A DNA stretch of 64,000 nt from contig NZ_KB899094.1 of NCBI RefSeq assembly GCF_000378045.1, forward strand, positions 1 through 64,000, written 5' to 3'. The stretch comes from Marinobacterium rhizophilum DSM 18822 (GTDB lineage: Bacteria > Pseudomonadota > Gammaproteobacteria > Pseudomonadales > Balneatricaceae). Every line of letters begins with the position of its first letter. Position 1 is the first letter of the stretch. The notes beneath the pieces are model-generated. The model made no database searches. It was not told the DNA's origin and saw nothing but the letters and a program-made list of their open reading frames with translations. Both the position numbers and the translations under genes were made by a program. This document shows positions 16,560-39,461 of this stretch, in pieces.

Positions 16560-17927
16560 TCAGCTCGCCTTGCGGGCGTCGGCCGGTGTGTCGGCAAGGT
16601 AGGCTTCGAGGGAATCGTCCAATGCTTCGAGCCAGGGGGTGTGGTGGGGGGGCGCCAGGGTTCCGGTCATTAACGAGCGGTAGGAGTGGTTGCGAAAGCC
16701 CATGATGTCCTCGTGCTTGTGATGCTCCCACGCCAGGAAGGTATCGCGCACGCCGTCAATATCAAAGCTGGGGTAGTCGGTGGCGTCGATCAGAGAGCGG
16801 ATGTAATCGCCCTGGAAGGTGATCATCTCCTCGTCGGTTTGCAGGGTTTCCTCCCGGGCACGCCAGGCCAGGCTGTCAGCGGTCATCACATCCTTGGCCG
16901 GCAGCGTGATCTGGCCAAGAATGATATCGCGCACGTACCAGGCCTGTGCATCGAACATGTTGAAGGTGTACCACTGATCCTGCATGCCGAGATAAAAGAA
17001 CTTCGGGTTGTCTTCCCAGACCACGCCCTTGTACAGGCCCAGTGGCCAGAGGCGATTGTTGGTTTTCAGCCGCAGGTCTTCGGGCAGGTAGGGGAAGTGG
17101 TGCAGGTAGCCGGTACAGAGGATGATGGCGTCAATTTTTTTCGAACTGCCATCGGAAAACCAGACGGTGTCTTTGTCACAGCGCACCAGCAGGGGTTTTT
17201 CTTCCCAGTTTTCAGGCCATTTGAAGCCCATCGGCGCGCTGCGGTAACTGGTGGTGATGCTGCGTGCGCCATACTTGTAGCACTGGGAACCAATGTCTTC
17301 GGCCGAGTAACTGCTGCCGACCAACAGGATATCCTTGTCCTGGAATTCCAGTGCATCGCGGAAATCGTGCGCATGCAGAATGCGGCCGTTGAATGACTCG
17401 AAGCCCTCGAATGTCGGCACGTTGGGGGTGGAGAAGTGGCCGCCGGCACAGATCACATGATCGTACTGTTCGCAGCTGAGGGTATCGGTGTTGTGGTCAA
17501 AGGCACTGACGCTGAATTTGCCAGTGGCCTCGTCGTATTCGACCTGGCGCACCGGGCAGTTGAAGCGAATTAGGTCACGCACGCCGGCTTTTTCGACGCG
17601 GCCCTTGATGTAGTCCCAGAGTACGGCCCTGGGCGGATAGGACGCGATGGGTTTGCCGAAGTGCTCCTCGAAGCTGTAGTCCGCGAACTCAAGGCATTCC
17701 TTGGGGCCGTTCGACCACAGATAGCGATACATGCTGCAGTGTACCGGTTCGCCGTTTTCGTCCAGACCGGTGCGCCAGCTGTAGTTCCACAGACCTCCCC
17801 AGTCGCTCTGCTTTTCATAACAGACCAGCTCTGGAATCTGCGCGCCTTTGGCTGCTGCGGACTGGAAGGCGCGCAACTGCGCCAGACCGCTTGGACCTGC
17901 ACCGATGATGGCTACTCGTAACGTCAT
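16560..17927 (-). CDS. tmm: Trimethylamine monooxygenase
   Basis: 455 residues, a bacterial flavin-containing monooxygenase oxidising trimethylamine to TMAO with NADPH and oxygen. [11 protein letters not shown] (residues about 5-15) binds [14 protein letters not shown] matches the FMO fingerprint FxGxxxHxxxF. [13 protein letters not shown] is the NADPH loop and [13 protein letters not shown] the late FMO motif. The aromatic WSNGPKE and YRYLWSNGP stretch near the substrate pocket is like other Tmm proteins. The gene is transcribed away from the signalling cassette, with possible operator repeats in its 138-bp upstream gap. It converges on the dmm operon. Confidence 0.95.
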
Positions 17928-18065: not shown

Positions 18066-18848
18066 TCAGTTGCCGTCCAGCGCGAGAATGATTCCCTCGA
18101 CACCGAGGATTGCACCGGTTCCGGCATAGAGACCACGGCCTTTTTCGCTGACTCGGCGAATGCGCCCGTCTGCGTGCTGCAGGCGATAGTGCAGTTCAAA
18201 GTTGTTGCGCTCGGCGAGCGCCAGCTGGACCTGTTGCCATACGGTACCGGCATCTTCGGGGTGGATAAGGGCGCCGAAGCTCGGTCCGGTCTGGTTGATT
18301 AATGCCTCGGGGCAGTAGCCGGTAAGCTCCAGGCAACCGGCACTGACGTATTCCATGCTCCAGTCGTGGTTGTTACGGGCGCGGTAGAGCATGGCGGGCA
18401 GGCCGTTGAGCAGCTGTTCGAGACTGCGGTGGCTGGCATCGCGCAGCTGCTGCTGGCGCACTCGGGCACTGATATCGCGCAGCGTCAGGCTGACCGGCCA
18501 GGGGTTGCCGGCTGCCAGCGGGCGGGCCTGCAGTTCGCACCAGTACAGTTCGGCGTCTGAGCCAAGCAGGCGTAGCGACAGGGGCGCTGATACCTCGTTC
18601 GTGTTGAGCCTGGCGAAAAAACGCTGCCAGAGTGGCCGGTCGGCCGGATGCAGACAGTCAGAGAACAGGAAGCCGAGCCCGCGCGGGGTGTCGGCCCGCA
18701 GATAGTTCCAGCTGCGGTTGGCATATAACAGTCGTTCATCGGCATCGATGACCAGTACGGTTTCATCCAGGCTGTCGAGCAGCCTGTGTGGATCTATATC
18801 TTCCTGCACGTGGGGCCAGCAGCCGAATGCCCCGAAGTGTTCGCTCAT
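18066..18848 (-). CDS. Double-PAS sensor protein without output domain
   Basis: 260 residues with two PAS domains. The first (about 20-130) includes LDETVLVIDADERLLYANRSW and its PAC-like end WCELQARPL...VSLTLRDIS. The second (about 140-255) includes LPAMLYRARNNHDWSMEYVSAGCLELTGY, FGALIHPEDAGTV and FELHYRLQHADGRIRRVSEKG. No kinase, GGDEF, HTH or membrane segment follows, so it must act through another protein. It overlaps the response regulator gene by four bases (ATGA), and its best partner is the adjacent soluble kinase. The ligand is unknown; a methylated amine is a fair guess from location. Confidence 0.85.
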   Translation of the reverse strand: MSEHFGAFGCWPHVQEDIDPHRLLDSLDETVLVIDADERLLYANRSWNYLRADTPRGLGFLFSDCLHPADRPLWQRFFARLNTNEVSAPLSLRLLGSDAELYWCELQARPLAAGNPWPVSLTLRDISARVRQQQLRDASHRSLEQLLNGLPAMLYRARNNHDWSMEYVSAGCLELTGYCPEALINQTGPSFGALIHPEDAGTVWQQVQLALAERNNFELHYRLQHADGRIRRVSEKGRGLYAGTGAILGVEGIILALDGN

Positions 18849-19525
18849 GACTCAAGTTCCAGTTCAAATTCGGGATGGTTATGGACCCAGGCGGCGAGTT
18901 CCAGCCGAGTGTGCAGATTGAGCTTGCGCAGCAGTGCCTTGACGTAAACCTTGACCGTGCCATCGCTGATGCCCAGTTCCCGCGCGATCAGCTTGTTGCT
19001 AAGACCGCGGGCAATCAGCGCCAGCGTTTGATGTTCGCGCAGCGTCAGGTCTGCGCAGTGCTGGGGCTCGGTGCCGGTGGGCCTGTCTTGCGGGGCTTCA
19101 CGTAATCCCAGTGTCAGGCGCTGCAGCGACTCGTCGTCCAGCGCGACCTTGCCTTCGAGCACCGCGTCCAGCCGTGTCAGGATCACGTCGGCGTCGGTTT
19201 CCTTTAACAGATAGCCATCGGCACCGGCGCGCAGCGCCTGCAGCAGGTGCTGGCTGTCGTCGGAGGCGGTCAGCAGCACGACGCGGATGCGATCGTTGAA
19301 TGCCTTTACCTGCGGTAAAAGCTCAAGGCCGCCGATACCGGGCATCTGCAGATCCAGCAACAGCAGGTCCGGCTGCAGTACTTGCAGTTGCTCCATGACC
19401 GACTCGGCCTGGTCGAATTCGGCCAGCACCTGAAACCGGCCGCTGTCGTTCAGTAACTCGGCGACGCCGCGGCGAAAGAGGGGGTGGTCGTCTACCAGCA
19501 CGACGCCGGCTCGGTTCTGCTTCAT
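18845..19525 (-). CDS. NarL/FixJ-family response regulator
   Basis: 226 residues: an N-terminal receiver (VVLVDDHPLFRRGV acid pocket; phospho-acceptor Asp58 in LLLLDLQMPG; VLLTASDD; YLLKE lysine) and a C-terminal LuxR-type HTH (LTLREHQTLALIARGLSNKLIARELGI, then VKVYVKALLRKL). This is the NarL arrangement. It overlaps both the kinase and the PAS gene by four bases, so the three are co-translated. It probably controls tmm and tdm on either side, but no experimental link is visible in sequence. Confidence 0.93.
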   Translation of the reverse strand: MKQNRAGVVLVDDHPLFRRGVAELLNDSGRFQVLAEFDQAESVMEQLQVLQPDLLLLDLQMPGIGGLELLPQVKAFNDRIRVVLLTASDDSQHLLQALRAGADGYLLKETDADVILTRLDAVLEGKVALDDESLQRLTLGLREAPQDRPTGTEPQHCADLTLREHQTLALIARGLSNKLIARELGISDGTVKVYVKALLRKLNLHTRLELAAWVHNHPEFELELES

Positions 19526-20727
19526 GGCTGTGGGCTCTTGTTAAGGTCGTCCAGTGACAGGGCTATTTCGATGCGCGTGCCGCCGCCCGGCCTGTCACCG
19601 ATACGGTAGCTCGCGCCCATGCGGCGGGCCCGCTCCTGCATGATGCCCAGACCAAAACTGTCCGGGCGGGCCGCCAGGGTGTCTATGCCACGGCCGTTGT
19701 CGTCGATGCGCAGCACCAGACTGGCGCCTTGCGGACGCAGCAACTGAATGCGCACGTGGCTTGCATGGGCATGGCGCACGGCATTGCTTAACGCCTCGCG
19801 CACAATAAACAGCAGTTGCACCGCGGCTGCCTCTGGCAGGTCGAGCGGGTGGGAACGGTCGTCCAGTTCAAAAACCAGCGCGGAGCCCTGCTCGAACACC
19901 CGTACTGTGGATTCCAGTGCACTGTGCAGGTGCCCGCCGTCGAGTTCCAGGCGTGCACTGCCAATCAGTTCGCGGGTCTGGCGACAGGCGAGCCGGGTTT
20001 GTATTGCAAGATCGTCCGCCAATGACCGCAGCTCTGCATTCTCCTGCGCATGGGCCAGGGACTGCAGTTTCGAGGTCCGCAAGCGTAGATACCCCAGTAC
20101 CTGGGTAACGGAGTCGTGCAGTTCGGCGGCGAACGCCCGCCTTTCGTCGCAGACGGCCCTGTCCCGCCAGTGTTGCTGCCGGTGCCAGATGCTCAGGCCG
20201 CGCTCAAGCGCCTGCTGCAGCGGTGCAATTTGCTCGGCAATCCTTTCAGTGCCCGGCAGCGGGCCCAAAAAATCGAGCAGCAGCCAGGCACTGTTTTCGG
20301 GGCCGGCCTGCAGGCGCAGGGCCTGCAACGGTGCGCCGCCACCGGGTCGGCGAAATGGCAGCAGCGCGGTTTCCTCGATGGCAGGGCCGCTGAGCTGGTA
20401 GGTGATGGCTGCGGCCAGGCCCGGTGCGGGCAGCGTTCGAGGGGCGTGAAACAGTCGCAGTGCAGGGCTTCCCGCAAACTGCAGGGCAACGTAAAGATTG
20501 CAGGCCGGCAGTTGTGGATTGCCGAGCGCCAGTGTCTGTTGCAGCGGCGCGAGCAGTGCCGGCAACTCGGCGGGCAGGTCTTCGCAGCCGGCGATTTCCA
20601 GTGCCAGCGATCCGACCAGTGATGCCGGCAGCAGGGGGGCCGCCGGGCGTGCTTGCACCTCAGGCGATGTGCGACTTGTGCCGATACGATGGATCCAGTA
20701 AGCCAGGCCTGTATTCACGCTGTTCAT
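19522..20727 (-). CDS. Soluble NarX-like sensor histidine kinase (HisKA_3)
   Basis: 401 residues. There is no membrane segment, unlike NarX. The N-terminal 185 residues form a GAF-like region without recognisable motifs. The dimerisation box AFAAELHDSVTQVLGYL carries the phospho-acceptor His204. An HATPase_c domain follows (IVREALSNAVRHAHA N-box, DDNGRGID G1, FGLGIMQERA G2, GGGTRIEIAL). It starts the kinase-regulator-PAS operon, whose promoter must lie in the 289-bp gap shared with tdm. The absence of membrane spans implies a cytoplasmic signal, possibly relayed by the double-PAS protein. Confidence 0.9.
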   Translation of the reverse strand: MNSVNTGLAYWIHRIGTSRTSPEVQARPAAPLLPASLVGSLALEIAGCEDLPAELPALLAPLQQTLALGNPQLPACNLYVALQFAGSPALRLFHAPRTLPAPGLAAAITYQLSGPAIEETALLPFRRPGGGAPLQALRLQAGPENSAWLLLDFLGPLPGTERIAEQIAPLQQALERGLSIWHRQQHWRDRAVCDERRAFAAELHDSVTQVLGYLRLRTSKLQSLAHAQENAELRSLADDLAIQTRLACRQTRELIGSARLELDGGHLHSALESTVRVFEQGSALVFELDDRSHPLDLPEAAAVQLLFIVREALSNAVRHAHASHVRIQLLRPQGASLVLRIDDNGRGIDTLAARPDSFGLGIMQERARRMGASYRIGDRPGGGTRIEIALSLDDLNKSPQP

Positions 20728-20842: not shown

Positions 20843-21016
20843 TCTTAAGGCACATTGCCTGCGCAATCACTGTAGGTAAATATTTTTTATCGAAAGGAAA
20901 TAACCAGTCGGCTCTGATCCTCACAGGTTCCAGTGCACCGGTTTGGCGAAGCACGCTGGCGCATGCGCCTAAATAAGGCGCGATTGGGCCGGGAAAACGA
21001 ATCACGGAGGTTACGC

Positions 21017-23314
21017 ATGAACAGTGGCTGGACAGGACCGGCAGTGCCGGTCAGCCGGCGTTACGCAGTGCCAGGGCAGCAGGCACTTTACCTGGAGCTG
21101 ATGCCCGGGGAGCGCTTGCAGTTACGCAGCGAGGACGGCGAGCAGTGCTGCGAGCTGATTCCGTTCGATGCACAGGCCCGCGACACGCTTGTGCCGCTCC
21201 TGGGCGAAATGACGACTGCCGTGGCGGCACGCGCGCAGCTGGCCGGGGCGGGGCACTCGGCACGTGCATTGGGCGAGCAACTGGAACGCTGGCAGTTGAG
21301 GGACGAGCAGCTGGACCAGGCTTGGCACCTCGTGCCTTCGCAACTGCCGCTGACGCTTGCGCTGCCGCCAAAGGCATCTTCTGTGCGCGTGCTGGTGCTG
21401 GCGCCCGGTGTCGATATGCCGGTGGATGGGCAGATACCGGCCACCGGGCTGCAGCTTGAGGTCACCGGCGCGACTGCAGCGGCGCTGCCGCCACCGCTGG
21501 CCACACCGTTGCGCGAATTGCGTGTGCCACACAGCAGCGCCCGTGCCTACGAGGTAAAGGCGGGTGAGTGGATCCAGGTGATTGATGTTGCCGGCAAGCA
21601 GTGCTCGGACTTTGTTGCCTTTGACCGGGCGGCCCTGGAGGCGGGTGAGGAGCTGATGCTGGACGGCACGGCTACGCGCACGCTGGCCGGCACTGCGCTG
21701 CCGCAACCGGGCCTGTTTTCGCGTTTCTGTGACCAGCGGTTACGGCCGATGCTTGAAGTGGTGCAGGACACCGTTGGGCGCCACGACAGCTTTCTGCTCG
21801 CCTGCTCGCCGAAATATTACGAAGACAGCGGCTATTTCGGCCATTCCAGTTGCACTGACAACTTCAACCGGGCACTGGCCCCCTTTGGCATTGGGCCACG
21901 ATTTGGCTGGCCGGCAATCAACTTTTTCTTCAATACCCGGGTGGAGCCGTGCGGAGCCATCGGCGTTGACGAGCCCTGGTCGCAACCCGGTGATTATGTG
22001 CTGATGCGGGCCCAGCGGGATCTGATCTGCGCCTCGTCCGCCTGCCCGGATGATATCGACCCGGCCAATGGCTGGTGTCCGAGCGATATTCATGTCCGCA
22101 TTTATGGCGCCGAACACCGGTTCCCGCGGGCGATTGCCCACCGAATCCGACCCGAGGAACCTGCGCTGATGACCAGGCAAACCGCTTTTCACGACCCTGT
22201 AACCGCCCTGACCCGGCAGCTTGTCGAATACAAGGGGTACTGGCTTGCGTCCGCCTTTGATGGCTGGGGGGCCCGCGCCGAGTACCTCGCGTGCCGCGAA
22301 CGCGTGGCGGTGATGGACCTGTCGCCGCTGCGCAAGTTCGAGGTGCTGGGGCCGGATGCCGAGGCGCTGCTGGATCTCGCGCTGACCCGCAACGTGCGCC
22401 GCGTGGCCGTGGGCGAGGTGGTCTATTCGGCGTTGTGCCAGGCCACCGGCGGCATGATCGACGACGGCACCCTGTTCCGCATGGGGCAGCAGGCGTTCCG
22501 CTGGATTTGCGGCGACCCCTACAGCGGCACCTGGCTGCGCGAGCTTGCCGTTCGGGAGGGCATGCGTGTCAGCGTGCGTGAATCCACCGACCAGCTGCAC
22601 AACCTTGCCGTACAAGGCCCCGAGAGCCGGCGCCTGCTTGAGTCACTGATCTGGAACGCGGAAGCGCAGCCGTCGGTGACACAGCTGCGCTGGTTCCATT
22701 TCATGATCGGTCGCCTCGGCGGGCCTGAGGGTATCCCGCTGATGATTTCCCGCACCGGCTATACCGGAGAGCTGGGGTTCGAGGTCTGGTGTCATCCCGA
22801 TCATGGCGCACAGCTGTGGGATTCGATCTGGCAGGCCGGTCAGCCGCTGGGCATCGCGCCGCTGGGGCTGGAGGCGCTGGATATGCTGCGCGTTGAGGCC
22901 GGGCTGATCTTTGCCGGCCACGAGTTCTGCCCTGAAACCAGTCCGTTCGAGGCCGGTATCGGCTTCACTGTTGCGTTGAAGACCAAGGAGACCGATTTCG
23001 TCGGCCGGGCGGCACTTGTGGCGCAGGCGCCGGCCAGTCGCAAGCGGCTGGTCGGGCTGCGGCTATACAGCGACGAGCCGGTGGCACACGGCGACCAGGT
23101 GTACAGCGGGCGCTTTCCGGTCGGAGTTGTCACCAGTGCCGTGCCGTCGCCGCTGCTCGGGTACCAGATCGCTCTGTGTCGGCTGGCCCCGGAGCACGCT
23201 GAAGCGGGCACTGAACTGGAGGTCGGGCAGCTGGACGGCCTGCGCAAGCGACTCAAGGCGGTGGTCGCGCCGTTGCCATTCCATGATCCGCAGCGCCTGC
23301 GGGTGCGCAGCTAA
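21017..23314 (+). CDS. tdm: Trimethylamine N-oxide demethylase
   Basis: 765 residues from the ATG at 21017 (GGAGG seven bases upstream). The N-terminal half is a DUF1989-type domain. Cys263, His276, Cys279 and Cys343 (LACSPKYY, GHSSC, SSACPDD) form the 3-Cys/1-His metal site described for TMAO demethylase. The C-terminal half (about 385-765) is a GcvT-type tetrahydrofolate-binding aminomethyltransferase fold (VMDLSPLRKFEV, MISRTGYTGELGFEVW, ALDMLRVEAGL). Tdm converts TMAO to dimethylamine and formaldehyde, and the GcvT part traps formaldehyde on THF. Its position between the two-component cassette and amt1, with tmm and dmm nearby, confirms the call. Confidence 0.95.
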   Translation: MNSGWTGPAVPVSRRYAVPGQQALYLELMPGERLQLRSEDGEQCCELIPFDAQARDTLVPLLGEMTTAVAARAQLAGAGHSARALGEQLERWQLRDEQLDQAWHLVPSQLPLTLALPPKASSVRVLVLAPGVDMPVDGQIPATGLQLEVTGATAAALPPPLATPLRELRVPHSSARAYEVKAGEWIQVIDVAGKQCSDFVAFDRAALEAGEELMLDGTATRTLAGTALPQPGLFSRFCDQRLRPMLEVVQDTVGRHDSFLLACSPKYYEDSGYFGHSSCTDNFNRALAPFGIGPRFGWPAINFFFNTRVEPCGAIGVDEPWSQPGDYVLMRAQRDLICASSACPDDIDPANGWCPSDIHVRIYGAEHRFPRAIAHRIRPEEPALMTRQTAFHDPVTALTRQLVEYKGYWLASAFDGWGARAEYLACRERVAVMDLSPLRKFEVLGPDAEALLDLALTRNVRRVAVGEVVYSALCQATGGMIDDGTLFRMGQQAFRWICGDPYSGTWLRELAVREGMRVSVRESTDQLHNLAVQGPESRRLLESLIWNAEAQPSVTQLRWFHFMIGRLGGPEGIPLMISRTGYTGELGFEVWCHPDHGAQLWDSIWQAGQPLGIAPLGLEALDMLRVEAGLIFAGHEFCPETSPFEAGIGFTVALKTKETDFVGRAALVAQAPASRKRLVGLRLYSDEPVAHGDQVYSGRFPVGVVTSAVPSPLLGYQIALCRLAPEHAEAGTELEVGQLDGLRKRLKAVVAPLPFHDPQRLRVRS

Positions 23315-23651: not shown

Positions 23652-24977
23652 ATGTCGCTGGAAACACTGCAAAGCACTTTCGAGATGCACCAGGCCATGA
23701 ACGTGGAAGTGTTCTATTGGTGGTGCACCGCCATCATGTTCATGATCCACACCGGGTTCCTGGCGTATGAAATCGGCGCTTCGCGCGTCAAGAACGCACT
23801 GACGTCGGGAATGAAAAATATCCTCACGCTGTCGGTCATCATTCCGACCTTTTATTTCTTCGGCTGGTGGATCTATAACGCTTTCCCGGGCGGCCTGGTG
23901 CCGGGTGATGCAGCATCGTCATTGCCCTGGAGCCTGCACATGGGACCGGATGTGCAGGATATGGGCACGGGCATCTTCTTTGCGGCCTTTGCACTGTTCG
24001 GCGCCACAACCGGTTCGATCCTCTCCGGTGCGGTAATCGAACGCATTCGTCTGAGTGCCTTTCTTATTCTGGCGGCGATACTGGGGTCGGCCGTCTGGAT
24101 CCTGGCCGCTGCCTGGGGATGGCATCCGCAGGGCTGGCTGCTGACTGAGCTGGGCTATCACGATGTCGGTGCCTCCGGCGTAGTGCATGCGGTGGCGGGC
24201 TTCTTCGCCCTGGGCGTGTTGCTGAACCTGGGCGCGCGCGTCGGCAAGTACGAAAACGGCACCCCAATGTACATTCCGCCCCATAACCTGCCCATGGCCC
24301 TGATCGGCCTGATGATGATTATCGTTGGCTTCTTCGGTTTCCTGGGCGGCTGCATCATCTTTAACGGTGGCGAGACTGGCTGGACCACCATCTATGGCAA
24401 CCCGACCAACCTGTCTGCCTTTGGTTTCAATACCCTGATGGGCTTTGCCGGCGGCGTGATCGGCGCCTATCTGGCCTCCCGCGAGCCGTTCTGGACCATG
24501 TCCGGCGGCCTGGCCGGCATCATCACTGTGGCGGCTGGACTGGATCTCTACTACCCCGGCCTGACTTTCGTGCTGGCGGCCAGCGGCGGCGTACTGATGC
24601 CGATGATCGGTCGCAAGCTCGAGAAAATGGGCGTCGATGATGCGGTCGGCGCCGTCGCGGTGCACGGCTTCTGCGGTTTCTACGGCGTGGTGCTGGTCGG
24701 GGTTTTCGCAGCGGGCTTTCCAAACGTGGGCGAAGGCATGCCGTCCATCACCTTCAGCGGACAGGTCACCGGCGCCATCATCATGGCCCTCGTTGGCTTC
24801 ATTCCGGGCTGGGGCATCTCCTGGGCGATGAAGAAATTCGGTGCGCTGCGGGTACCGCCGCAGGTTGAAGTGCTGGGTCTGGATCTGGTTGAAATCCCGG
24901 CCAGGCCCTACCCCGAATCGGTGCCGGCCCAGGCCATTGTCGAAAATACCCTGAAACCGGGCCAGGAAGTGGCCTGA
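23652..24977 (+). CDS. Ammonium transporter family protein (Amt-type, copy 1)
   Basis: 441 residues, about eleven membrane spans, of the Amt/Mep/Rh family. Both pore histidines are in place: one in GASGVVHAVAGF, the other in DDAVGAVAVHGFCGF. FGWWIYNAF, FALFGATTGSILSGAVIERI and the cytoplasmic tail are also family-like. The N-terminal segment (FEMHQAMNVEVFYWWCTAIMF) differs from E. coli AmtB and there is no classical signal peptide. About three-quarters of residues look identical to the second copy at 39.5-40.8 kb. No glnK/glnB gene is next to it; instead a 55-residue single-TM protein follows. It may carry methylammonium as well as ammonium, which is inference from context. Confidence 0.92.
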   Translation: MSLETLQSTFEMHQAMNVEVFYWWCTAIMFMIHTGFLAYEIGASRVKNALTSGMKNILTLSVIIPTFYFFGWWIYNAFPGGLVPGDAASSLPWSLHMGPDVQDMGTGIFFAAFALFGATTGSILSGAVIERIRLSAFLILAAILGSAVWILAAAWGWHPQGWLLTELGYHDVGASGVVHAVAGFFALGVLLNLGARVGKYENGTPMYIPPHNLPMALIGLMMIIVGFFGFLGGCIIFNGGETGWTTIYGNPTNLSAFGFNTLMGFAGGVIGAYLASREPFWTMSGGLAGIITVAAGLDLYYPGLTFVLAASGGVLMPMIGRKLEKMGVDDAVGAVAVHGFCGFYGVVLVGVFAAGFPNVGEGMPSITFSGQVTGAIIMALVGFIPGWGISWAMKKFGALRVPPQVEVLGLDLVEIPARPYPESVPAQAIVENTLKPGQEVA

Positions 24978-25059: not shown

Positions 25060-25227
25060 ATGAATACAAGTCCGATTACCAGTTGGGAAGGCGTGTCCGC
25101 ATACTTCACCTTTGCTGACAGCCCGACCGGCATCGCCATCAGCCTGGCTGCGGCGGTGGGGGTTTACCTGCTGCTGAACGCCACCATCATCCGTCACGAA
25201 AAGGCGTCATTCGACAAGCACAAGTAA
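25060..25227 (+). CDS. Tiny single-TM protein paired with Amt copy 1
   Basis: 55 residues from the ATG at 25060 (GGAG seven bases upstream). The polar N-terminus has WEGVSAYFTFADSP. One hydrophobic helix (about residues 24-44) is followed by a basic tail IIRHEKASFDKHK. A paralogue with the same three parts lies directly behind the second Amt gene, so the pairing is unlikely to be chance. No named family is known to me. A transporter subunit or assembly factor is the simplest idea, comparable in size to small accessory subunits of other carriers. After its stop, CAGGTG...CACCTG (25236-25265) can fold as a hairpin without a T-run. Confidence 0.8.
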   Translation: MNTSPITSWEGVSAYFTFADSPTGIAISLAAAVGVYLLLNATIIRHEKASFDKHK

Positions 25228-25372: not shown

Positions 25373-26503
25373 ATGGCTCAATCCTGGCGATTTTCCGCGC
25401 TGGCTGACCGTCATCGCGCCCTGGGGTCCAACCTCGAAGACTGGAACGGCATGGGCACGGCCTGGACCTATAACAGCGAGCTGGCGGATGAGCATGAGGC
25501 GATTCGCACCCGTGCCGGCCTGATGGATGTTTCGGGCCTGAAAAAGGTGCATTACGTGGGGCCCCATGCCGAAAGCCTGCTCGAATACGCCACGACGCGC
25601 GATATCTCCAAGCTCTATCCCGGTAAGTCGGTGTATGCCTCCATGCTTAACGAGGCCGGTAAATTTGTCGATGACTGCATCGTCTATCGCACCGGGCCCA
25701 ATGCGTTCATGGTGGTGCACGGTACCGGTAGCGGGCATGAAATGCTGGTGCGCTCGGCCCAGGGGCGCCAGGTAGCAATACTGTTTGATGACGATATGCA
25801 CGACCTGTCACTGCAGGGGCCGCTGGCGGTGAATTTTCTCGCCGAGTACGTGCCGGGGATTCGCGACCTGCCGTATTTCCATCACCTGCAGACGCGGCTG
25901 TTTGACCGCCCGGTGATGATCTCCCGCACCGGCTACACCGGCGAGCGCGGCTACGAGATCTTCTGCAAGGCGGCCGACGCACCGGTTATCTGGGATTCGA
26001 TTGTCGAGAAGGGACGGGCCATGGGGATTGTGCCCTGTTCGTTCACGGCACTGGACTGGCTGCGAGTCGAAAGTTCACTGCTGTTCTTCCCGTACGACAA
26101 TTCAGAGATGTACCCCTTCGCCGACCAGCCGGCGGGCGACACGCTGTGGGAGCTCGGGCTCGATTTCACGGTCTCCAGGGACAAGACGGAGTTTCGTGGC
26201 GCAACGGAGCACTTCAGGCTCAAGGGCAAGGAGCGCTTCAGGATTTTTGGCGTCATGCTCGAGGGGGATCAGGCTGCGGAAGCCGGCGATACCCTGCATG
26301 TCGACGGCACGGAGGTCGGCGTGATTACCTGTGGCATGTATTCGCGCCTGACCGGCAAGTCGATGGCCATTGCCCGCATGAAGGTGGATTGTGCCGAGCA
26401 GGGCATGCCGCTGCAGGTGCAGGGCAGCCTCGACGTCGGCGCCATTGCCCATACGCTGCCCTTCGATGACCCGGAGAAAAAGAAGCGCACTGCCAGGGGC
26501 TGA
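25373..26503 (+). CDS. GcvT-like aminomethyltransferase / THF-binding protein (DmmD candidate)
   Basis: 376 residues from the ATG at 25373; AAGGAG lies six bases upstream and the longer open frame is rejected. It is a stand-alone GcvT-fold protein: GLMDVSGLKKVHYVGP, MLNEAGKFVDDCIVYR, LSLQGPLAVNF, MISRTGYTGERGYEIF and ALDWLRVESSLL line up with the folate-binding regions of T-protein. It is not part of a glycine cleavage operon. A GcvT-like gene named dmmD accompanies dimethylamine monooxygenase in roseobacters, and this is the likely counterpart, capturing formaldehyde as methylene-THF. A hairpin (GGAACCGC-TCG-GCGGTTCC, 25323-25341) lies in its leader. Confidence 0.82.
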   Translation: MAQSWRFSALADRHRALGSNLEDWNGMGTAWTYNSELADEHEAIRTRAGLMDVSGLKKVHYVGPHAESLLEYATTRDISKLYPGKSVYASMLNEAGKFVDDCIVYRTGPNAFMVVHGTGSGHEMLVRSAQGRQVAILFDDDMHDLSLQGPLAVNFLAEYVPGIRDLPYFHHLQTRLFDRPVMISRTGYTGERGYEIFCKAADAPVIWDSIVEKGRAMGIVPCSFTALDWLRVESSLLFFPYDNSEMYPFADQPAGDTLWELGLDFTVSRDKTEFRGATEHFRLKGKERFRIFGVMLEGDQAAEAGDTLHVDGTEVGVITCGMYSRLTGKSMAIARMKVDCAEQGMPLQVQGSLDVGAIAHTLPFDDPEKKKRTARG

Positions 26504-26521: not shown

Positions 26522-26557
26522 CGAGCCCGAAGCATGTTGCGTGCGTCGGGCTTTTTA
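26522..26557 (+). terminator. Rho-independent terminator after the GcvT-like gene
   Basis: AGCCCGA (26524-26530) pairs with TCGGGCT (26546-26552), followed directly by TTTTTATT. It lies 20 bp after the stop codon, so it ends the amt1 transcript on the plus strand. Confidence 0.85.
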
Positions 26558-26580
26558 TTGCGCGCACGTCAGAGTCACAT

Positions 26581-26700
26581 TCCCGGCGGGCACGCCGGTC
26601 CTACGAGGGGAGAAGTCCCGCAGGCGCGGCGCCTCGCCGCGAACAGGCCTTGCGCGGTAGCGAAGGACGTTCCTTGCCGGAGCGCCGCTCCCAATCAAGG
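26581..26700. repeat. Decayed REP-type palindromes
   Basis: Segments such as GGCGCGGCGCCTCGCCGCGAA (near 26622-26642) and GGAGCGCCGCTCCC (near 26679-26692) resemble the REP cores of the 15.8-16.5 kb array, though more decayed. They lie in the gap between two convergent genes. Confidence 0.5.
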
Positions 26701-26740
26701 CCGTGCTTCCGTGCTTCCGTGCTTCCGTGCTTCCGTGCAT
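26701..26740. repeat. Five tandem copies of an 8-bp repeat
   Basis: CCGTGCTT occurs four times in perfect tandem, followed by one variant CCGTGCAT. It lies 19 bp past the 3' end of the minus-strand regulator gene, outside any gene. Copy number is likely to vary by slippage. Confidence 0.9.
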
Positions 26741-26758
26741 CCGTTCACCGAACCCAAC

Positions 26759-27352
26759 TCAATCCTCGTCGTAATGGATGACCGACAGCAGCTGGATCGG
26801 TACTTCGCGCAGCAATTCCGGTCCGTGCGGTACCTCGGCATCGAAGGAAAGGGCGTCACCGGGTTCCATCTCATAAAGATGGTTGCCGTGGCGGTACTGG
26901 ATGCGCCCCTGCAGCAGGTAAATGAACTCCTGACCCGGATGCGAAAAGGTCGGGAACACCTCGGCGGCATCGTCCATGGTGATCAGGAAGGGCTCGTAAC
27001 TTTTCTTTTTACCGCGATGGTAGCTCAGCAACTGGTAGGTGTGACCTTTCTCGGTACCGCGGCGCACCACCTCCATGCCTTCACCTGCCTTGACCAGCTG
27101 AGCACTGCCGGTGGGGCGGTCGTAGTCGCTGAACAGCTGCGAAATCGACAGTCCGATAGCGTCGCACAGGCGGTTGAGGGTATCGAGGCTGGTGGAGACC
27201 TGGGCATTTTCGATCTTGCTGATCATGCCCTGGCTGAGTCCGGCGATTCGCGCCACATCGGTGATCTTGAGCCCCTGTTCCGAGCGTTTCTGTTTCACCT
27301 TCATGGCGATGTACTGCTCCAGCTGGAGCTTCGGGTTCTGCGCTTCATTCAT
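26759..27352 (-). CDS. XRE-family transcriptional regulator with C-terminal cupin
   Basis: 197 residues. The N-terminal helix-turn-helix (about 15-72) reads VKQKRSEQGLKITDVARIAGLSQGMISKIEN, followed by LNRLCDAIGLSISQLF. The C-terminal cupin domain (about 115-190) includes FSHPGQEFIYLLQGRIQYRHGNHLYEMEPGDALSFDAEVPHGP, with several possible metal His/Glu. Such HTH-cupin regulators often govern catabolism or amino acid use in response to a small ligand. It is divergent from the purU-mgd-gma operon with a 250-bp spacer and likely controls it or the GcvT-like transcript it faces. Confidence 0.88.
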   Translation of the reverse strand: MNEAQNPKLQLEQYIAMKVKQKRSEQGLKITDVARIAGLSQGMISKIENAQVSTSLDTLNRLCDAIGLSISQLFSDYDRPTGSAQLVKAGEGMEVVRRGTEKGHTYQLLSYHRGKKKSYEPFLITMDDAAEVFPTFSHPGQEFIYLLQGRIQYRHGNHLYEMEPGDALSFDAEVPHGPELLREVPIQLLSVIHYDED

Positions 27353-27536
27353 GATGACGTTGCTCTTTATCAGTGCAGCTCTGTGACAGGTTGGTGCATC
27401 TTTTCGGGCCTGTCGGGCTCGATTTCAGAGCAGCTGACCCGCTCTGCGTATTCCTCATGAGAAAAAATATTTCTTTATAGTAACCAAATCAACAGTTTAG
27501 GGCATCTTCGCATTTTTTGCCTGGAGCCTTTAAAAG

Positions 27537-27602: not shown

Positions 27603-28475
27603 ATGGCTAACGATATTGAAAGTGCCCGCAAGTACCGCCTTACGATCTCCTGTCCCGATCGTGTCGGGATTGTCTCGACAGTGACGCAGTTTCTCTCCGC
27701 GCACAATGGCTGGATCAATGAGGCCCATCAGTTTGCCGATACTGAAACCTGCACCTTCTTCATGCGCTACGAAGTGCTGGCCGACTCGCTGCCGTTCGAT
27801 CTCGAAACGTTGAAAGCGAAATTCGCGCCAGTTGCCAAAGAATTCGACATGCAGTGGCAGATTACCGATTCGTCGGTGAAAAAGCGCGTGCTGCTGATGG
27901 TCTCCAAAGAGGCGCACTGCCTGTCCGATCTGCTGTACCGCTGGCGCAGTGGCGACATGCCGTTCGAGATTCCCTGCGTGTTGTCCAACCACGATGATCT
28001 GCGTCCCTACGTGGAGTTCCACGATATTCCCTATATTCACCTGCCCGTGGACAAGGATAACAAGGAGCCGCATTTCCGGGCCATCAAGGAGCAGATTGCA
28101 GCGGCCGATGCCGATGTGATCGTGCTGGCGCGCTACATGCAGATATTGCCGGAAGACCTCTGCGAGCTTTACCCCTCAAGGATCATCAACATTCACCACA
28201 GCTTCCTGCCGTCCTTTATCGGCGCGCGGCCGTATCACCAGGCCGGCGTGCGCGGCGTCAAGCAGATCGGCGCGACCTGTCACTACGTGACCTCGGAACT
28301 CGATGGCGGCCCGATCATCGAGCAGGACGTGCATCGCGTGACCCATCACAACACAACCAGCGACATGGTGCGTATCGGCAAGGATGTCGAGAAGGCAGTG
28401 CTGGCCCGCGGCCTTCGGTACCACATCGAGGATCGCGTACTGGTGTACGGCAATAAAACCGTCGTTTTTGCCTGA
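27603..28475 (+). CDS. purU: Formyltetrahydrofolate deformylase
   Basis: 290 residues. An ACT domain (about 10-90: LTISCPDRVGIVSTVTQFL) precedes a formyltransferase-fold catalytic domain with LLMVSKEAHCLSDLLYRW, VLARYMQILPEDLC and the active-site segment IINIHHSFLPSFIGARPY. PurU hydrolyses 10-formyl-THF to formate and THF, regenerating free THF for C1 capture from methylated amines. AGGAG precedes the ATG. It heads a tightly packed operon: mgdA starts 28 bp later. PurU together with FolD is a usual companion of the N-methylglutamate pathway. Confidence 0.95.
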   Translation: MANDIESARKYRLTISCPDRVGIVSTVTQFLSAHNGWINEAHQFADTETCTFFMRYEVLADSLPFDLETLKAKFAPVAKEFDMQWQITDSSVKKRVLLMVSKEAHCLSDLLYRWRSGDMPFEIPCVLSNHDDLRPYVEFHDIPYIHLPVDKDNKEPHFRAIKEQIAAADADVIVLARYMQILPEDLCELYPSRIINIHHSFLPSFIGARPYHQAGVRGVKQIGATCHYVTSELDGGPIIEQDVHRVTHHNTTSDMVRIGKDVEKAVLARGLRYHIEDRVLVYGNKTVVFA

Positions 28476-28503: not shown

Positions 28504-29745
28504 ATGCCCTGGCGCTTATTGAAATACGGCCTGAAGAAGACGCATGACGAACCGCGTTTCTTTCCCGCAGCCAAACCGCTCAAATCCGGCTACGACGTCG
28601 TCATCATCGGCGGCGGCGGGCACGGCATGGCCTGCGCCTACTATCTGGCCAAGGAACATGGCATCACCAACGTTGCGGTGCTCGAGCAGGGGTATATCGG
28701 TGGCGGTAACACCGGGCGCAACACCACCATTGTGCGCTCCAACTACCTGACCCCCGAGGGCGTGCGGTTTTACGACACCAGCCTCAAGCTGTTCGAGGAC
28801 CTGTCGGACGATTTCGATCTGAATATTTTCTATTCGACCCGGGGCCATTTCACCCTGGCGCACACCGACAGCGCGCTGCGCACCATGCGCTGGCGCGCCG
28901 AAGTGAACAAGCGCCACGGTATCGACAGCGAGGTGGTGGACCGCGAGTTTATCGCCCGCGAAGTGCCGTACATGGATCTTGACTGCGCCGGTCACAGTGC
29001 CGTGCAGGGTGCGCTCTACCATGCGCCGGGAGCGGTGGCGCGTCACGATGCGGTGGCCTGGGGTTACGCCCGTGGTGCCTACAACCGCGGTGTCGAGATT
29101 CACCAGAAAACCCGTGTCACCGAGATCCGTACGCAGGGCGACCAGGTGGTGGGTGTACAGACCGACCGCGGCTTTATCAGCTGCAACAGGGTGATCTCGA
29201 TGGTGGCCGGCTCTACGCCCCGCATCACCGAGATGGTCGGGCTGCGCACGCCCATCGAGATCTTTCCGCTGCAGGCCTGCGTGTCGGAGCCGGTCAAGCC
29301 GTTCATGGATACCATCGTCGTCTCAGGCAGCCTGCACGTGTATGTCAGCCAGTCGTCCCGTGGCGAAATGGTCATGGGCGCTTCGGTGGACCCCTCGGTG
29401 CTGCACTCAACCCGCTCAAGCTTCGATTTCGTCGAGGGCCTGACCGACAAGATGCTGGACCTGTTCCCGTTCATGAGCCGCATGAAGGTCATGCGCCAGT
29501 GGGCCGGCATGAGCGACATCACGCCGGACTTCGCGCCGATCATGGGCAAGACACCGATTAAGGGTTTTTACCTCGATGGGGGCTGGGGCACCTGGGGCTT
29601 CAAGGCCACGCCCGTCAGTGGCAAGACCATGGCCTGGACAATTGCCCACGACAAGACACACGAACTGATCGAGCCCTTCCGGCTGTCCCGTTTCGCCGAC
29701 TTCGACCTGGTCGGCGAGAAGGGTGCGGCATCGGTCGGGCACTGA
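28504..29745 (+). CDS. mgdA: N-methylglutamate dehydrogenase subunit A (sarcosine oxidase beta-like)
   Basis: 413 residues of the SoxB-like flavoprotein family. YDVVIIGGGGHGMACAYYLAK binds FAD, and the GGGNTGRNTTIVRSNY segment is where the sister family carries its covalent FMN histidine region. DFAPIMGKTPIKGFYLDGGWG is the typical late FAD motif. In sarcosine oxidase this subunit oxidises the N-methyl group. Here the complete mgdABCD-gmaS-mgsABC order points to N-methylglutamate dehydrogenase, which releases glutamate and methylene-THF. mgdB starts 9 bp later. Confidence 0.93.
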   Translation: MPWRLLKYGLKKTHDEPRFFPAAKPLKSGYDVVIIGGGGHGMACAYYLAKEHGITNVAVLEQGYIGGGNTGRNTTIVRSNYLTPEGVRFYDTSLKLFEDLSDDFDLNIFYSTRGHFTLAHTDSALRTMRWRAEVNKRHGIDSEVVDREFIAREVPYMDLDCAGHSAVQGALYHAPGAVARHDAVAWGYARGAYNRGVEIHQKTRVTEIRTQGDQVVGVQTDRGFISCNRVISMVAGSTPRITEMVGLRTPIEIFPLQACVSEPVKPFMDTIVVSGSLHVYVSQSSRGEMVMGASVDPSVLHSTRSSFDFVEGLTDKMLDLFPFMSRMKVMRQWAGMSDITPDFAPIMGKTPIKGFYLDGGWGTWGFKATPVSGKTMAWTIAHDKTHELIEPFRLSRFADFDLVGEKGAASVGH

Positions 29746-29754
29746 GGAGGGGTT

Positions 29755-30021
29755 ATGAAACTGTTCGATTGTCCCGTGATCGGCAAGCGCCCGATCAGTG
29801 AGTTCGATTACTGCGGCGAGGTACGCCGGCCGCCGCTGGATGCCGACGAGACGGCCTGGGCGGACTTTGTCTTCAACCGTAACGGCGCGCCCCAGGTGCT
29901 GCGCGAATGGTGGTACCACCGGCCGACCGGGCGCTGGTACATCATGGAGCGCGACACCCTGAAGGATGAAGTGCAGCGTTTTATTGACCCGCAGGAGGTG
30001 CGTTATGACATCCCGGCTTGA
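29755..30021 (+). CDS. mgdB: N-methylglutamate dehydrogenase subunit B (sarcosine oxidase delta-like)
   Basis: 88 residues with the SoxD-like sequence: LFDCPVIGKRPISEFDYCGE at the start, then WADFVFNRNGAPQVLREWWYHRPTGRWY. In heterotetrameric enzymes this zinc-binding subunit holds the complex together; the zinc Cys/His set here is Cys5 and Cys23 with a His in the YHRPTG region. AGGAGG lies directly before the ATG. The 3' end overlaps the start of mgdC by 17 bases. Confidence 0.92.
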   Translation: MKLFDCPVIGKRPISEFDYCGEVRRPPLDADETAWADFVFNRNGAPQVLREWWYHRPTGRWYIMERDTLKDEVQRFIDPQEVRYDIPA

Positions 30022-32914
30022 TCCGCAACCGCTGGAATGGCTCGATCGCAACGAGACCTACCGTTTCACCTTTGAGGGCCAGGCCTATACCGGCTTTCGC
30101 GGTGACAGTGTGACCTCGGCGCTGCTGGCCTGTGGCCAGACGCTGCTGGGGCGCAGTTTCAAGTACCACCGTCCACGCGGTGCCCTGACACTGGCCAACC
30201 ACGACGTCAATGCACTGATGCAGAGTGCGGACGCCACCAATATCCGCGCCGATGTGACGCCGCTGCAAGCGGGGCTGGATTTGCGGGCGTGCAACGTCAA
30301 CGGCACGCTTGTAAACGATCGCGACCGCTTTATCGAGCGCCTGTCGGCCTTCCTGCCGGTGGGGTTTTACTACAAGACGTTCCACAAGCCCAAGCGCTTC
30401 TTCCCGTTCTGGGAGCGCAAGATCCGCGAAAAGGCGGGCCTTGGCAGCATTGATACCCGCTGGACGGCCAGGCGTCAGGCCAAGTCCTACGGCTTCTGCG
30501 ACCTGTTGGTCATTGGTGCCGGCGCCTCCGGCATGCAGGCGGCGCTCACCGCGGCCGACGCCGGGCTCGATGTCGTGCTGGTGGATGAAAACCCCCGCAT
30601 CGGCGGCAGCCTGGACTATCAGCTGGCGAACGACGCCGATGCGGCGCCCGTGCGCGAACGCCTTAAGACGGGCGTTGAGGGGCACGCCAATATCCGCGTG
30701 TTGCCGTCGCACTACGCCGCCGGCTGGTACACCGATCACTATGTGCCGCTGTCTGGGCCGACGGGCATCATCAAGATGCGCGCCGGCGCCGTGATCAGCG
30801 CCACCGGGGTAATGGAGCAGCCGTCGGTGTTCCGCTTTAACGACCTGCCCGGCGTGATGATGGCTTCCGGCGCGCAGCGCCTGATCGCCCGTCATGCGAT
30901 CAGGCCGGGCAAGCGCGCGGTGGTGCTGAGCGCCAACGGCGAAGGCTATCGTGCCGCCTTGGACCTGCTGCAGGCCGGTATCGACGTGGCGGCGGTGGTG
31001 GATCTGGAACAGGGGGCCGAACGCGGCCACTGGGCGTCCCAGCTGGCAGCGGCGCGCATTCCGGTCATCGAGGGGCACGCGATCTACGAAGCCCAGGGCA
31101 AGGGGCGGTTGGAGCGCGTCATTGTTGCGCCGTTCGATGGCCATCGCTGCAACCCGGCAACCGCCCGCGAGATCCCCTGCGATCTGCTGCTGATGAGTGT
31201 GGGCTGGGCGCCCGCGTCACAGCTGCTCTATCAGGCCGGCGCCAGGCTGGCGTACGACGACACACTGCAGCAGCTGCTGCCACAGCAGTTGCCCGCCGGC
31301 ATTTTCGCCTGCGGCCGCCTTAATGGCGCCTTCAGCCTCGAGCAGCGCCTGGCAGACGGCCAGCGTGCGGCAAAAGATGCCTGTGCCCATCTGCGCGGTG
31401 AAAGCCTGCAGCCGGATCTCGCAGCCTGTCGCGACACACGCGCACACAGCCACCCCTGGCCGATCATTGAACATCCCAGGGGCAAGAACTTCATCGACTT
31501 TGACGAAGACCTGCAGCTCAAGGATCTGGTCAACGCGGCAAAGGAAGGCTTTGACAATATCGAACTGATAAAGCGCTTCTCGACCATCGGCATGGGGCCG
31601 AGCCAGGGCAAACACAGCAACATGAACGGCATTCGAGTGCTGGCCTCGGTGATTGGTCGCAGCATCGACGAGACCGGATCGACCACGGCAAGGCCGATGT
31701 TCCATCCGGTGCCGGTCAGCGACCTGGCGGGACGCCGTTTTCGCCCCGAGCGCCTGAGCGCGCTGCATGATCGTCACTTGGGCCTTGGCGCGCAGATGAT
31801 GGAAGCCGGCGCCTGGTTGCGTCCGGAGTACTACGGTATGCCGGACCAGCGCGAGCCGTCGATTCTGCGCGAAGTGCAGGCCGTGCGCACCGCGCTGGGC
31901 CTGATCGATGTCTCGACGCTCGGCAAGATCGAGGTGATGGGGCCGGATGCCGCCAAGCTGCTCGATGGCAGCTACACCATGCGCATGTCGACCATCAGAA
32001 CGGGTATGACTCGCTACGCGCTGATGGTCGACGACAGCGGCGTGATCGTCGATGACGGCATCGTTGGCCGTGTGGCCGAGGATCGCTTCTATGTCACCGC
32101 CACCACCAGTCACAGTGAGGCCACCTACCGTACCCTGTCGCGCCATATCGTCGAGTGGGGTCTCGATGTCCGGCTGGTGAACCGCACCGGCGTGCTGGCG
32201 GCCATGAACCTGGCCGGTCCCCATGCCCGCCAGTTGCTGGCGCCGCTGACCGACATCGACCTTGCCGAAGACGCATTCCCTTATCTGGGCATGCGTGAAG
32301 GGCAGCTCTGCGGCATTCCTGTACGGCTGATCCGGGTCGGCTTCGTCGGCGAACTGGGTTACGAGATTCACCTGCCGGTTGATGCGGCCGCCACACTATG
32401 GGACCGCCTGATGAGCGCCGGTGCCGAATTCGGTATTCGTCCGTTCGGCGTTGAAGCCCAGCGCGTGCTGCGCCTTGAAAAGGGTCACATCATCGTCGGT
32501 CAGGACACCGATGGCCTGACCAATCCGTTCGAGGCCGCCATGGCCTGGGCCGTGCCGCTCAAGAGCAAGCCTTACTTTGTTGGCCGCCCATCGCTGGCGC
32601 TGCTGAAGGCGCGCTGCAGTCGCAAGCTTATCGGCTTTCGGTTGCCCAAGGGCTACAGCGGCGAAAGGCCCAAGGAGTGTCATCTCATTATCGAGAACGG
32701 CGAGATGGCCGGACGCATCACCAGCATCGCCTACAGCCCGAGTCTTGGGCAGCTGATCGGCTTGGCGATGGTTGACCTGCCGCTGGCCGAGGCTTCGCTG
32801 TCGCTGAGCGTCTGTGTCGACAGCGGCGACCTGATTCAGATCGAACCCTGCGCGCTGCCGTTCTACGACGCCGAAGGCAAACGACAAACCGCAGATCTTA
32901 CGGAGGTGGCCTGA
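30005..32914 (+). CDS. mgdC: N-methylglutamate dehydrogenase subunit C (sarcosine oxidase alpha-like)
   Basis: 969 residues from the ATG at 30005 (GAGG upstream; the frame open to 29966 is inside mgdB). A 2Fe-2S/NAD-linked N-terminal fold (about 20-110, GDSVTSALLACG, SFKYHRPRG) is followed by an FAD/NAD-binding domain (about 160-470: LLVIGAGASGMQAALTAADAG, DENPRIGGSL). A C-terminal GcvT domain (about 600-960: ALGLIDVSTLGKIEVMG, GELGYEIHLP, EKGHIIVGQDTDG) binds THF. It is the large catalytic subunit of the complex. Its last codons (ADLTEVA) are repeated 80 bp downstream (see the repeat entry). Confidence 0.94.
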   Translation: MTSRLDPQPLEWLDRNETYRFTFEGQAYTGFRGDSVTSALLACGQTLLGRSFKYHRPRGALTLANHDVNALMQSADATNIRADVTPLQAGLDLRACNVNGTLVNDRDRFIERLSAFLPVGFYYKTFHKPKRFFPFWERKIREKAGLGSIDTRWTARRQAKSYGFCDLLVIGAGASGMQAALTAADAGLDVVLVDENPRIGGSLDYQLANDADAAPVRERLKTGVEGHANIRVLPSHYAAGWYTDHYVPLSGPTGIIKMRAGAVISATGVMEQPSVFRFNDLPGVMMASGAQRLIARHAIRPGKRAVVLSANGEGYRAALDLLQAGIDVAAVVDLEQGAERGHWASQLAAARIPVIEGHAIYEAQGKGRLERVIVAPFDGHRCNPATAREIPCDLLLMSVGWAPASQLLYQAGARLAYDDTLQQLLPQQLPAGIFACGRLNGAFSLEQRLADGQRAAKDACAHLRGESLQPDLAACRDTRAHSHPWPIIEHPRGKNFIDFDEDLQLKDLVNAAKEGFDNIELIKRFSTIGMGPSQGKHSNMNGIRVLASVIGRSIDETGSTTARPMFHPVPVSDLAGRRFRPERLSALHDRHLGLGAQMMEAGAWLRPEYYGMPDQREPSILREVQAVRTALGLIDVSTLGKIEVMGPDAAKLLDGSYTMRMSTIRTGMTRYALMVDDSGVIVDDGIVGRVAEDRFYVTATTSHSEATYRTLSRHIVEWGLDVRLVNRTGVLAAMNLAGPHARQLLAPLTDIDLAEDAFPYLGMREGQLCGIPVRLIRVGFVGELGYEIHLPVDAAATLWDRLMSAGAEFGIRPFGVEAQRVLRLEKGHIIVGQDTDGLTNPFEAAMAWAVPLKSKPYFVGRPSLALLKARCSRKLIGFRLPKGYSGERPKECHLIIENGEMAGRITSIAYSPSLGQLIGLAMVDLPLAEASLSLSVCVDSGDLIQIEPCALPFYDAEGKRQTADLTEVA

Positions 32915-32996
32915 TGGATTGCATGACTCGCACGACACCGCAGTACAGCCAGGGCAAAAGGTCCACGGCCGCAGATCTTACGGAGGTGGCCTGATG
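32891..32996 (+). repeat. 80-bp-period duplication of the mgdC tail and ribosome site
   Basis: The 26 bases from 32891 and from 32971 are identical; each contains the end of an ADLTEVA-stop reading frame, CGGAGG and a TGATG junction. The segment between resembles a diverged copy of the preceding mgdC end (EGKRQTADLTEVA against QGKRSTAADLTEVA). The original junction has thus been doubled, so that mgdD now starts 80 bp later than the first TGATG. Confidence 0.85.
32914..32994 (+). CDS. 26-codon mini-ORF between mgdC and mgdD
   Basis: The ATG overlaps the mgdC stop (TGATG), has CGGAGG upstream, and the frame ends in a second TGATG that starts mgdD. Its C-terminal residues copy those of mgdC. 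It probably arose by duplication. It keeps ribosomes moving into mgdD; the 26-residue product itself is likely meaningless. Confidence 0.4.
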   Translation: MDCMTRTTPQYSQGKRSTAADLTEVA

Positions 32997-34801: not shown

Positions 34802-34838
34802 TCGCGGTGCTGACAGTGTTTTTTCGAGGTAATCGACT

Positions 34839-35744: not shown

Positions 35745-35758
35745 GGGGAGAGAGAACG

Positions 35759-36442: not shown

Positions 36443-36518
36443 ACAACGGGCTGAGAAAGCGACCTGCGTTGCCAGCGCTTTTACAGCCCGTTGATTTTGC
36501 ATGATTGAGGATTTGGAT

Positions 36519-38797: not shown

Positions 38798-38881
38798 GTT
38801 GCAGCGCCGATTTTCAGGCAAGCCCGGCGGCGTAACACCATCGGTGCCGGCGACATTCTCGGTGCTGAACAGAGGCCCCAT

Positions 38882-39133: not shown

Positions 39134-39239
39134 GGGAGAAGCGATGACGCTGGTGCCGCTTGAGGTTTTCGCGGAATGTGCGCATCGCGTAGCCCATCAA
39201 TGTCGCCAGTTTTAGTGCAGGTTCGCTACCCGAACAAAC

Positions 39240-39459: not shown

Positions 39460-39461
39460 GA

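Follow-up and report, generated by a model that had tools for sequence, protein, structure and literature searches.

A predicted single-helix partner protein conserved beside a divergent, amine-operon clade of Amt proteins

The window, a 64,000-nucleotide stretch of the Marinobacterium rhizophilum DSM 18822 genome, carries two Amt genes, each followed on its own strand by a short open reading frame (ORF). Pair 1, on the plus strand, comprises Amt 1 (441 aa, positions 23652–24977), a member of a divergent amine-operon clade, and small partner 1 (55 aa, positions 25060–25227; MNTSPITSWEGVSAYFTFADSPTGIAISLAAAVGVYLLLNATIIRHEKASFDKHK), which starts 82 bp after the Amt stop and displays a predicted periplasmic motif, one transmembrane (TM) helix, and an HE tail. 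Pair 2, on the minus strand, comprises Amt 2 (455 aa, positions 39462–40829), from another subclade of the same clade, and small partner 2 (54 aa, positions 39295–39459; MGTSITTWENVSAYFTFADNPMALGLFVAGATVIVVGLIRSIIKHENEAFKQHK), with a start codon exactly 2 bp (39460–39461) past the Amt stop. The two partners share 49% identity over 55 columns (E = 6e-18), and the two Amts are 71% identical. In the host genome, a search detected four Amts and the small protein twice; its copies adjoin the two clade Amts only, and the other two Amts (33% and 29% identical) are without a small partner. An initial sequence-only reading of this DNA had described a W-E-x-V-SAYFTFAD motif, one hydrophobic helix, and an HE...HK tail in both small ORFs, all of which are present, and had placed each ORF directly after its Amt gene with 2 bp in the second pair, an order confirmed by the gaps given above. 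That reading gave no strand for the second small ORF; read on the plus strand, 39295–39459 yields an unrelated frame, and the small ORF is that of the minus strand.

Pair 1 reads as part of an apparent methylated-amine operon on the plus strand. Upstream lies a TMAO demethylase-like gene (Tdm candidate, 20933–23314) with DUF1989 and GCV_T matches, scoring 1052.5 bits against NF053776, just below the cut-off of 1100, and a GcvT-like gene (DmmD candidate, 25373–26503) directly follows partner 1. Further downstream are PurU (27603–28475, above its cut-off), NMG-dehydrogenase/sarcosine-oxidase-like subunits (28504–33470; soxB and soxA families below their cut-offs) with small subunits of the same kind at 29755 and 32919 recognized by eye only, a type III glutamine-synthetase-like gene (GmaS candidate, 33467–34801; TIGR03105 above cut-off), and MgsA/B/C-like N-methylglutamate synthase candidates within 33467–37847, comprising a GATase match, a gene at 35693 assigned by eye, and the stretch 36501–37847, where only a weak glutamate synthase match below cut-off was found. 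A Thioclava plasmid is annotated with amt, small ORF, aminomethyltransferase, and dmmA in that order. Pair 2 lies beside EutB (41691–43130) and EutC (40846–41694), both above their NCBIfam cut-offs and on the minus strand like Amt 2, which EutC immediately precedes. As annotated here, the operons of the two window pairs contain no GlnK.

Several other features occupy the same region. An XRE-cupin type regulator (HTH_3 and Cupin_2, 26759–27352, minus strand) lies inside the methylated-amine operon, and ORF308 (26534–27460, plus strand, 308 codons), left uncounted as a neighbour query, is probably a spurious antisense frame of this real regulator. Genes for a PAS protein, a LuxR-type response regulator, and a histidine kinase (18066–20727, minus strand) diverge from the Tdm candidate and possibly form a local two-component regulator. 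An FMO-like monooxygenase gene at 16560–17927 on the minus strand is a candidate for Tmm (trimethylamine monooxygenase) and, if so, would bring a TMA-to-ammonium pathway in one region closer to completion. Between the two operons, a stretch of ~125 bp is duplicated at 38870–39136, its two copies being 88–91% identical.

Scanning genome contigs with Amt 2 retrieved 210 relatives, the best 80 of which were kept as clade loci. A downstream same-strand small ORF is present in all of these 80 loci, whose hosts include Marinobacterium, Methylophaga, Marinomonas, Oceanobacter, Thalassospira, Jiella, and Methyloceanibacter, spanning Gamma- and Alphaproteobacteria. The distance from Amt stop to small ORF ranges from 2 to 138 bp in the 78 loci placed by script and is exactly 2 bp in 17 of them; the two loci that failed the placement filter (L052 and L069), with small ORFs visible at 84 and 89 bp, do not figure in the tree, in the distance test, or in the clade residue comparison. 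A partner profile built from 38 sequences (A2) matches 80/80 clade loci at E ≤ 1e-3, a count that is partly circular because 36 of the 38 rows come from those loci; the pairing rests on ORF position too. An apparent Amt-partner gene fusion in five loci was discarded after closer reading, which revealed normal stops and a separate partner.

Small ORFs are easily over-read, and 213 ORFs of at least 40 aa overlap window positions 20000–45000, a density that would suit a chance or non-coding open frame. That reading is refuted by the 80/80 conservation, by a dN/dS of 0.089 pooled over 14 author-chosen within-group pairs, indicative of purifying selection on the small gene, and by ribosome-binding sites, with a Shine-Dalgarno-like tetramer upstream of the small gene in 77 of 78 loci.

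Among 398 genomes of the host's phylum, 15 clade Amts occur in 14 genomes, and 13 of the 15 have a recognizable partner beside them. Profile A2 detects twelve of these partners at E < 1e-4, and the thirteenth (L123) is a homologous, Rhodobacterales-type variant (A2 versus A4, probability 96.4%, E 1.2e-9). The other two Amts (L125 and L126) neighbour a small hydrophobic ORF for which profile comparison detected no demonstrable homology to the partner (probability 3.8%). Searches starting from the partner, in order- and phylum-level samples that share genomes (e.g., G000, G037, G065, and G191), lead back to the Amt: the P0003 query found 14 places in 13 genomes among 194 order-level genomes, 14/14 adjoining a clade Amt, and A2 found 16 places among the 398 phylum-level genomes, with all 12 at E < 1e-4 adjoining a clade Amt. 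The remaining four are weak (E 0.002–0.005), do not lie beside a clade Amt, and look like chance. On plasmids, tblastn with P0003 gave no match; an Amt search there returned 10 records with a clade Amt, and in all five inspected a CDS of 58–71 aa annotated 'hypothetical protein' directly follows amt, although in one (L131) the small ORF is of the kind with unproven homology to the partner. Twelve stretches of viral contigs matched a pattern, and none encodes a relative. Taken over these searches, the pairing of Amt and small ORF is close to obligate in the clade.

Beside the deep-branching Amts L125, L126, and L131 stands another kind of small hydrophobic ORF, which bears the signature A-x-YPF-x-G-x-E and represents either an independent replacement or an extreme divergence; glutamine amidotransferase, GXGXG, and FMN-glutamate-synthase genes come after it in L131. 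An Amt C-terminus ending in -PAE occurs in 26 Amts of the 80 loci (e.g., L078 and L087), as well as on the L128–L131 Amts and on the small ORF that neighbours the Amt of L126, and is possibly a C-terminal recognition motif.

Controls consisted of 30 ordinary Amt loci from 76 order-level genomes, retrieved with the host's own glnK-linked Amt as query. The partner profile matches 0/30 of them at E ≤ 0.05, and one has, within 150 bp, a 45–85-codon ORF that contains a TM-strength segment and is unlike the family. Conservation of the pair across operons, as put forward in the sequence-only reading, thus holds from Amt to partner and from partner to Amt, with 80/80 related loci against 0/30 ordinary-Amt loci; the opposite outcome, small ORFs unconserved next to Amt genes in other genomes, was looked for and not seen. 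A GlnK match is present in 27/30 control loci (about 3–4 kb each) and in 4/80 clade loci (flanks up to 6 kb, at a laxer threshold than in the controls), a comparison in which the control count is favoured because the control query is itself glnK-linked and the controls are mostly one family.

Neighbouring genes were sought in flanks of up to 6 kb, some of them short, using window and plasmid sequences as tblastn queries. Methylated-amine or EutB genes are present in 70/80 clade loci: methylated-amine genes only in 36, EutB only in 28, both in 6, and neither in 10. In 21/80, EutC immediately precedes the Amt on its strand. The amine-catabolism setting first suggested for both Amts, Tdm/GcvT-like at pair 1 and EutBC beside pair 2, is supported in the window and across these 70 loci. 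Methylated-amine and ethanolamine pathways alike act on a small amine cation and liberate ammonium. Ethanolamine itself as the substrate of Amt 2 is weakened by a strong match to an Eat-type permease elsewhere in the genome. The recurrence of amt next to TMA/DMA/MMA degradation genes is already in print (PMC7574528, PMC5520151); these published methylated-amine amt/amtB clusters share the amt gene with the loci described here, and the small ORF is unmentioned in the available portions of both papers.

Both window Amts match PF00909 (185.9 and 186.3 bits, cut-off 23.2) and fall below the cut-off of the canonical Amt subfamily TIGR00836 (198.1 and 190.8 bits against 343.3) and below those of the TIGR03644 and AmtB models. 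The clade is discrete, because in the 398 phylum-level genomes its weakest match has an E value of 4.8e-79 and none further appears at E ≤ 1e-43. A quick, midpoint-rooted tree of 96 rows splits 93 clade rows from three ordinary Amts with an SH-aLRT of 100, a join to be read with caution because of its long branches. Amt 1 is placed with Nitrincola tapanii and Marinobacterium and Amt 2 with Leucothrix arctica, and each window partner is nearest to the partners of its own Amt's tree group. Because the Amts fall in different subclades and their partners match the same groups, the window pairs look like two old pairs with no recent duplication. Amt and partner distances correlate with r = 0.805, a value that includes shared ancestry, against a maximum of 0.150 in 2000 label permutations.

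H168, H318, F107, F215, D160, and W148 (AmtB numbering), among them the pore histidines, the Phe gate, and the filter Trp, are conserved in 80/80 rows (78 clade loci, omitting the too-short L052 and L062, plus the two window Amts). Comparison of 93 clade rows with 33 ordinary rows (including one duplicate, most of them from one family) yielded 55 positions that are clade-specific by filter, of which we picked four for discussion. At AmtB position 219, in the filter, Cys occupies 93/93 clade rows and Ser 33/33 ordinary rows; at 212, beside the Phe gate, Phe occurs in 92/93 clade rows and Trp in 33/33 ordinary ones. Leu replaces Asn at P0004 position 231 in 89/93 clade rows, and His occupies P0004 position 33, in TM1, in 92/93 clade rows and 1/33 ordinary rows. 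The selectivity filter of Ks-Amt5 consists of the equivalent Ser and a Trp (PMC5764959). We infer that the changed filter is the best sequence hint of a substrate other than plain ammonium.

The nearest solved sequences are the sensor Amts 6eu6 and 8qj3 (103.7 and 96.4 bits, versus 48.1 for AmtB 1xqe), which raises the alternative that the clade Amt is a sensor or transceptor reporting external (methyl)ammonium, with the small protein as a signal relay and not a transport subunit. The Ks-Amt5 pore is reported to be closed by the bulky TM1 residues F27, Y30, and F34 (PMC5764959), two of which have equals in F36 and Y39 of P0004, each in 80/80 rows; the Tyr is clade-specific (92/93 clade rows, 0/33 ordinary rows), and the window holds the kinase, response regulator, and PAS cluster that diverges from the Tdm candidate. 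The third TM1 position, however, is Ala in 80/80 rows, smaller than Phe, the Phe of the first position is found also in the host's glnK-linked Amt, and the partner is too short for any known signalling domain. The clade Amts also keep both pore histidines, the Phe gate, and the filter Trp, residues that do not discriminate a channel from a sensor because Ks-Amt5 keeps them too (PMC5764959). On balance we consider a sensory role unlikely, and the most probable function of the clade Amt is that of a methylammonium/ammonium channel linked to amine catabolism.

The small protein is composed of two conserved ends joined by a helix that is variable in sequence. Its N-terminal motif, [PS]-I-T-x-W-[ED]-G-[AV]-x-A-Y-F-T-F-A-D, is matched at the C-terminus by a conserved H-E...F; in the 38 rows of A2, H46 is present in all and W9 and E47 in >90%. 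The L061 and L064 partners lack SAYFTFAD and keep HE, and in L066 and L069, both outside A2, HE is replaced by QE and DE, respectively. A TM-strength segment is present in 78/78 scored partners. The N-terminal 20 residues contain no K/R in 76/78, and the C tails average 3.0 K/R and 2.8 D/E. By the positive-inside rule, a K/R-free N-terminus and a K/R-rich C tail suggest an integral, single-helix protein oriented N-out/C-in, a charge argument that rests on K/R alone because the tails also average those 2.8 acidic residues. Folded alone by AF2, the small protein is predicted to form a short helix (residues 12–15) and a long helix (residues 22–52) with a mean pLDDT of 83.7.

An AF2 model of Amt and partner as one read-through chain (22 joined rows in a 50-row alignment) reached a pTM of 0.84, and a Foldseek search with the chain model of relative L030 returned Amt structures as top matches; the chain contains an isolated beta-bridge at residue 472. 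Docking of the partner is not confident because the pLDDT of its N-terminal motif block is only 48 and 61 in the chain, versus 60 and 73 in another member folded alone. No face of the helix stands out as conserved (conservation moment p = 0.74), which counts against tight packing because a packed TM subunit would be expected to have a conserved one. Both results would suit a protein that serves the amine pathway or the membrane, is merely co-transcribed with the Amt gene, and never touches its product. The small ORF nevertheless follows Amt in two operon types and in the 10 loci where neither was found, and every match at E < 1e-4 in the 194 and 398 genomes adjoins a clade Amt, which makes mere co-transcription very unlikely.

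No fitting family for the small protein was found in Pfam, NCBIfam, PHROGs (two window proteins only), or PDB, in line with the sequence-only reading, to which no described family with this layout was known. Its best PDB profile match has an E value of 0.028; the KdpF, DUF3185, and MscL models each match one of the 38 members (E 0.0021–0.0083), and P0003 scores 15 bits against DUF3185, below the cut-off of 25.3. KdpF and CydX are single-helix accessory proteins of transporters, and the small protein fits the profile of such accessories, being small, with one TM helix, and tied to one transporter. Full-text literature searches, including AYFTFAD and SPO1578 and with subscription journals and preprints mostly outside their coverage, returned no description of it.

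Known Amt-associated proteins differ from the small partner in form. GlnK, a PII protein, is likewise encoded beside Amt and controls it, its T-loop plugging the pore exit (PMC4274968), but it is a soluble, trimeric, cytoplasmic protein, whereas the partner is a 55-aa membrane helix. sP36 of Methanosarcina mazei, like the partner, has fewer than 70 aa and acts on Amt; it is cytoplasmic under nitrogen limitation, moves to the membrane on ammonium upshift, and acts through GlnK1 (PMC10714827), whereas the partner is a predicted integral protein with glnK seldom in its vicinity. AcrZ, WatS1, and MgtS/MgtR are small proteins that each serve one transporter or pump and affect stability or specificity (PMC10710835), and no sequence family in common with the partner was found. 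In the available sections of the same source, the Amt family appears with PII proteins only. RhCG, an Rh glycoprotein, has an extra helix, TM0, at the subunit interface of its Amt-fold trimer (PMC10794816); TM0 is an N-terminal helix of the same chain, and the partner is a separate polypeptide. The available text of that Amt/Mep/Rh review contains none of the terms 'accessory', 'small protein', 'partner', or 'sP36' (PMC10794816). The small protein would therefore represent a new family of single-helix transporter partner, none such having been found described for the Amt/Mep/Rh superfamily.

Small-protein regulators also furnish a different model, in which the partner, like MgtR or SgrT, would bind the Amt and either shut it off or direct it to degradation when amine-derived ammonium accumulates. 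Small proteins acting in this way have been described for other bacterial transporters (PMC10710835), inhibition of AmtB1 in Methanosarcina has been proposed to run through the 61-aa sP36 (PMC10714827), and another off-switch might be needed where glnK is rarely near, as with the clade Amts. A gene placed right after Amt, at 2 bp in 17/78 loci, fits a stoichiometric component more readily than an inhibitor that acts conditionally, and we judge turnover control improbable.

The reading we favour, with a probability of roughly 0.6, gives the amine-operon Amt an integral accessory subunit with a single helix, namely the small protein, which would act in place of PII control. Encoded 2–138 bp downstream, often at 2 bp, it would be made in step with the Amt and, judging from its charge distribution, would insert N-out/C-in. 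The motif W-[ED]-G-x-x-A-Y-F-T-F-A-D on the periplasmic face and HE...F on the cytoplasmic face may dock onto the Amt, while the variable helix would mainly cross the bilayer. The protein would most likely aid Amt assembly or stability and set its open state, and it appears to occupy the genomic place held by glnK beside the sampled ordinary Amts. The filter-altered Amt may in turn carry methylammonium and/or ammonium across the membrane for methylated-amine and ethanolamine catabolism. A bolder and more tentative version, which we hold possible without expecting it, is that small protein and filter-modified Amt together form a two-protein methylammonium (amine) permease free of PII control. 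If true, it would provide the Amt/Mep/Rh superfamily with a dedicated transmembrane subunit and with a physiological amine channel that is not an ammonium scavenger.

Being tiny and unnamed, the small gene would be missed in knock-outs and in heterologous tests of Amt function. The clade Amt is a candidate route for methylammonium movement (or ammonium disposal) in marine bacteria during methylated-amine breakdown, and methylated-amine flux is relevant to the ammonium cross-feeding of diatoms (PMC7574528). Bacterial Amts are usually described as homotrimers that soluble PII proteins regulate; in this much-studied channel family, a near-obligate partner in the membrane of one discrete clade's Amts would mean a further level of mechanism and control.
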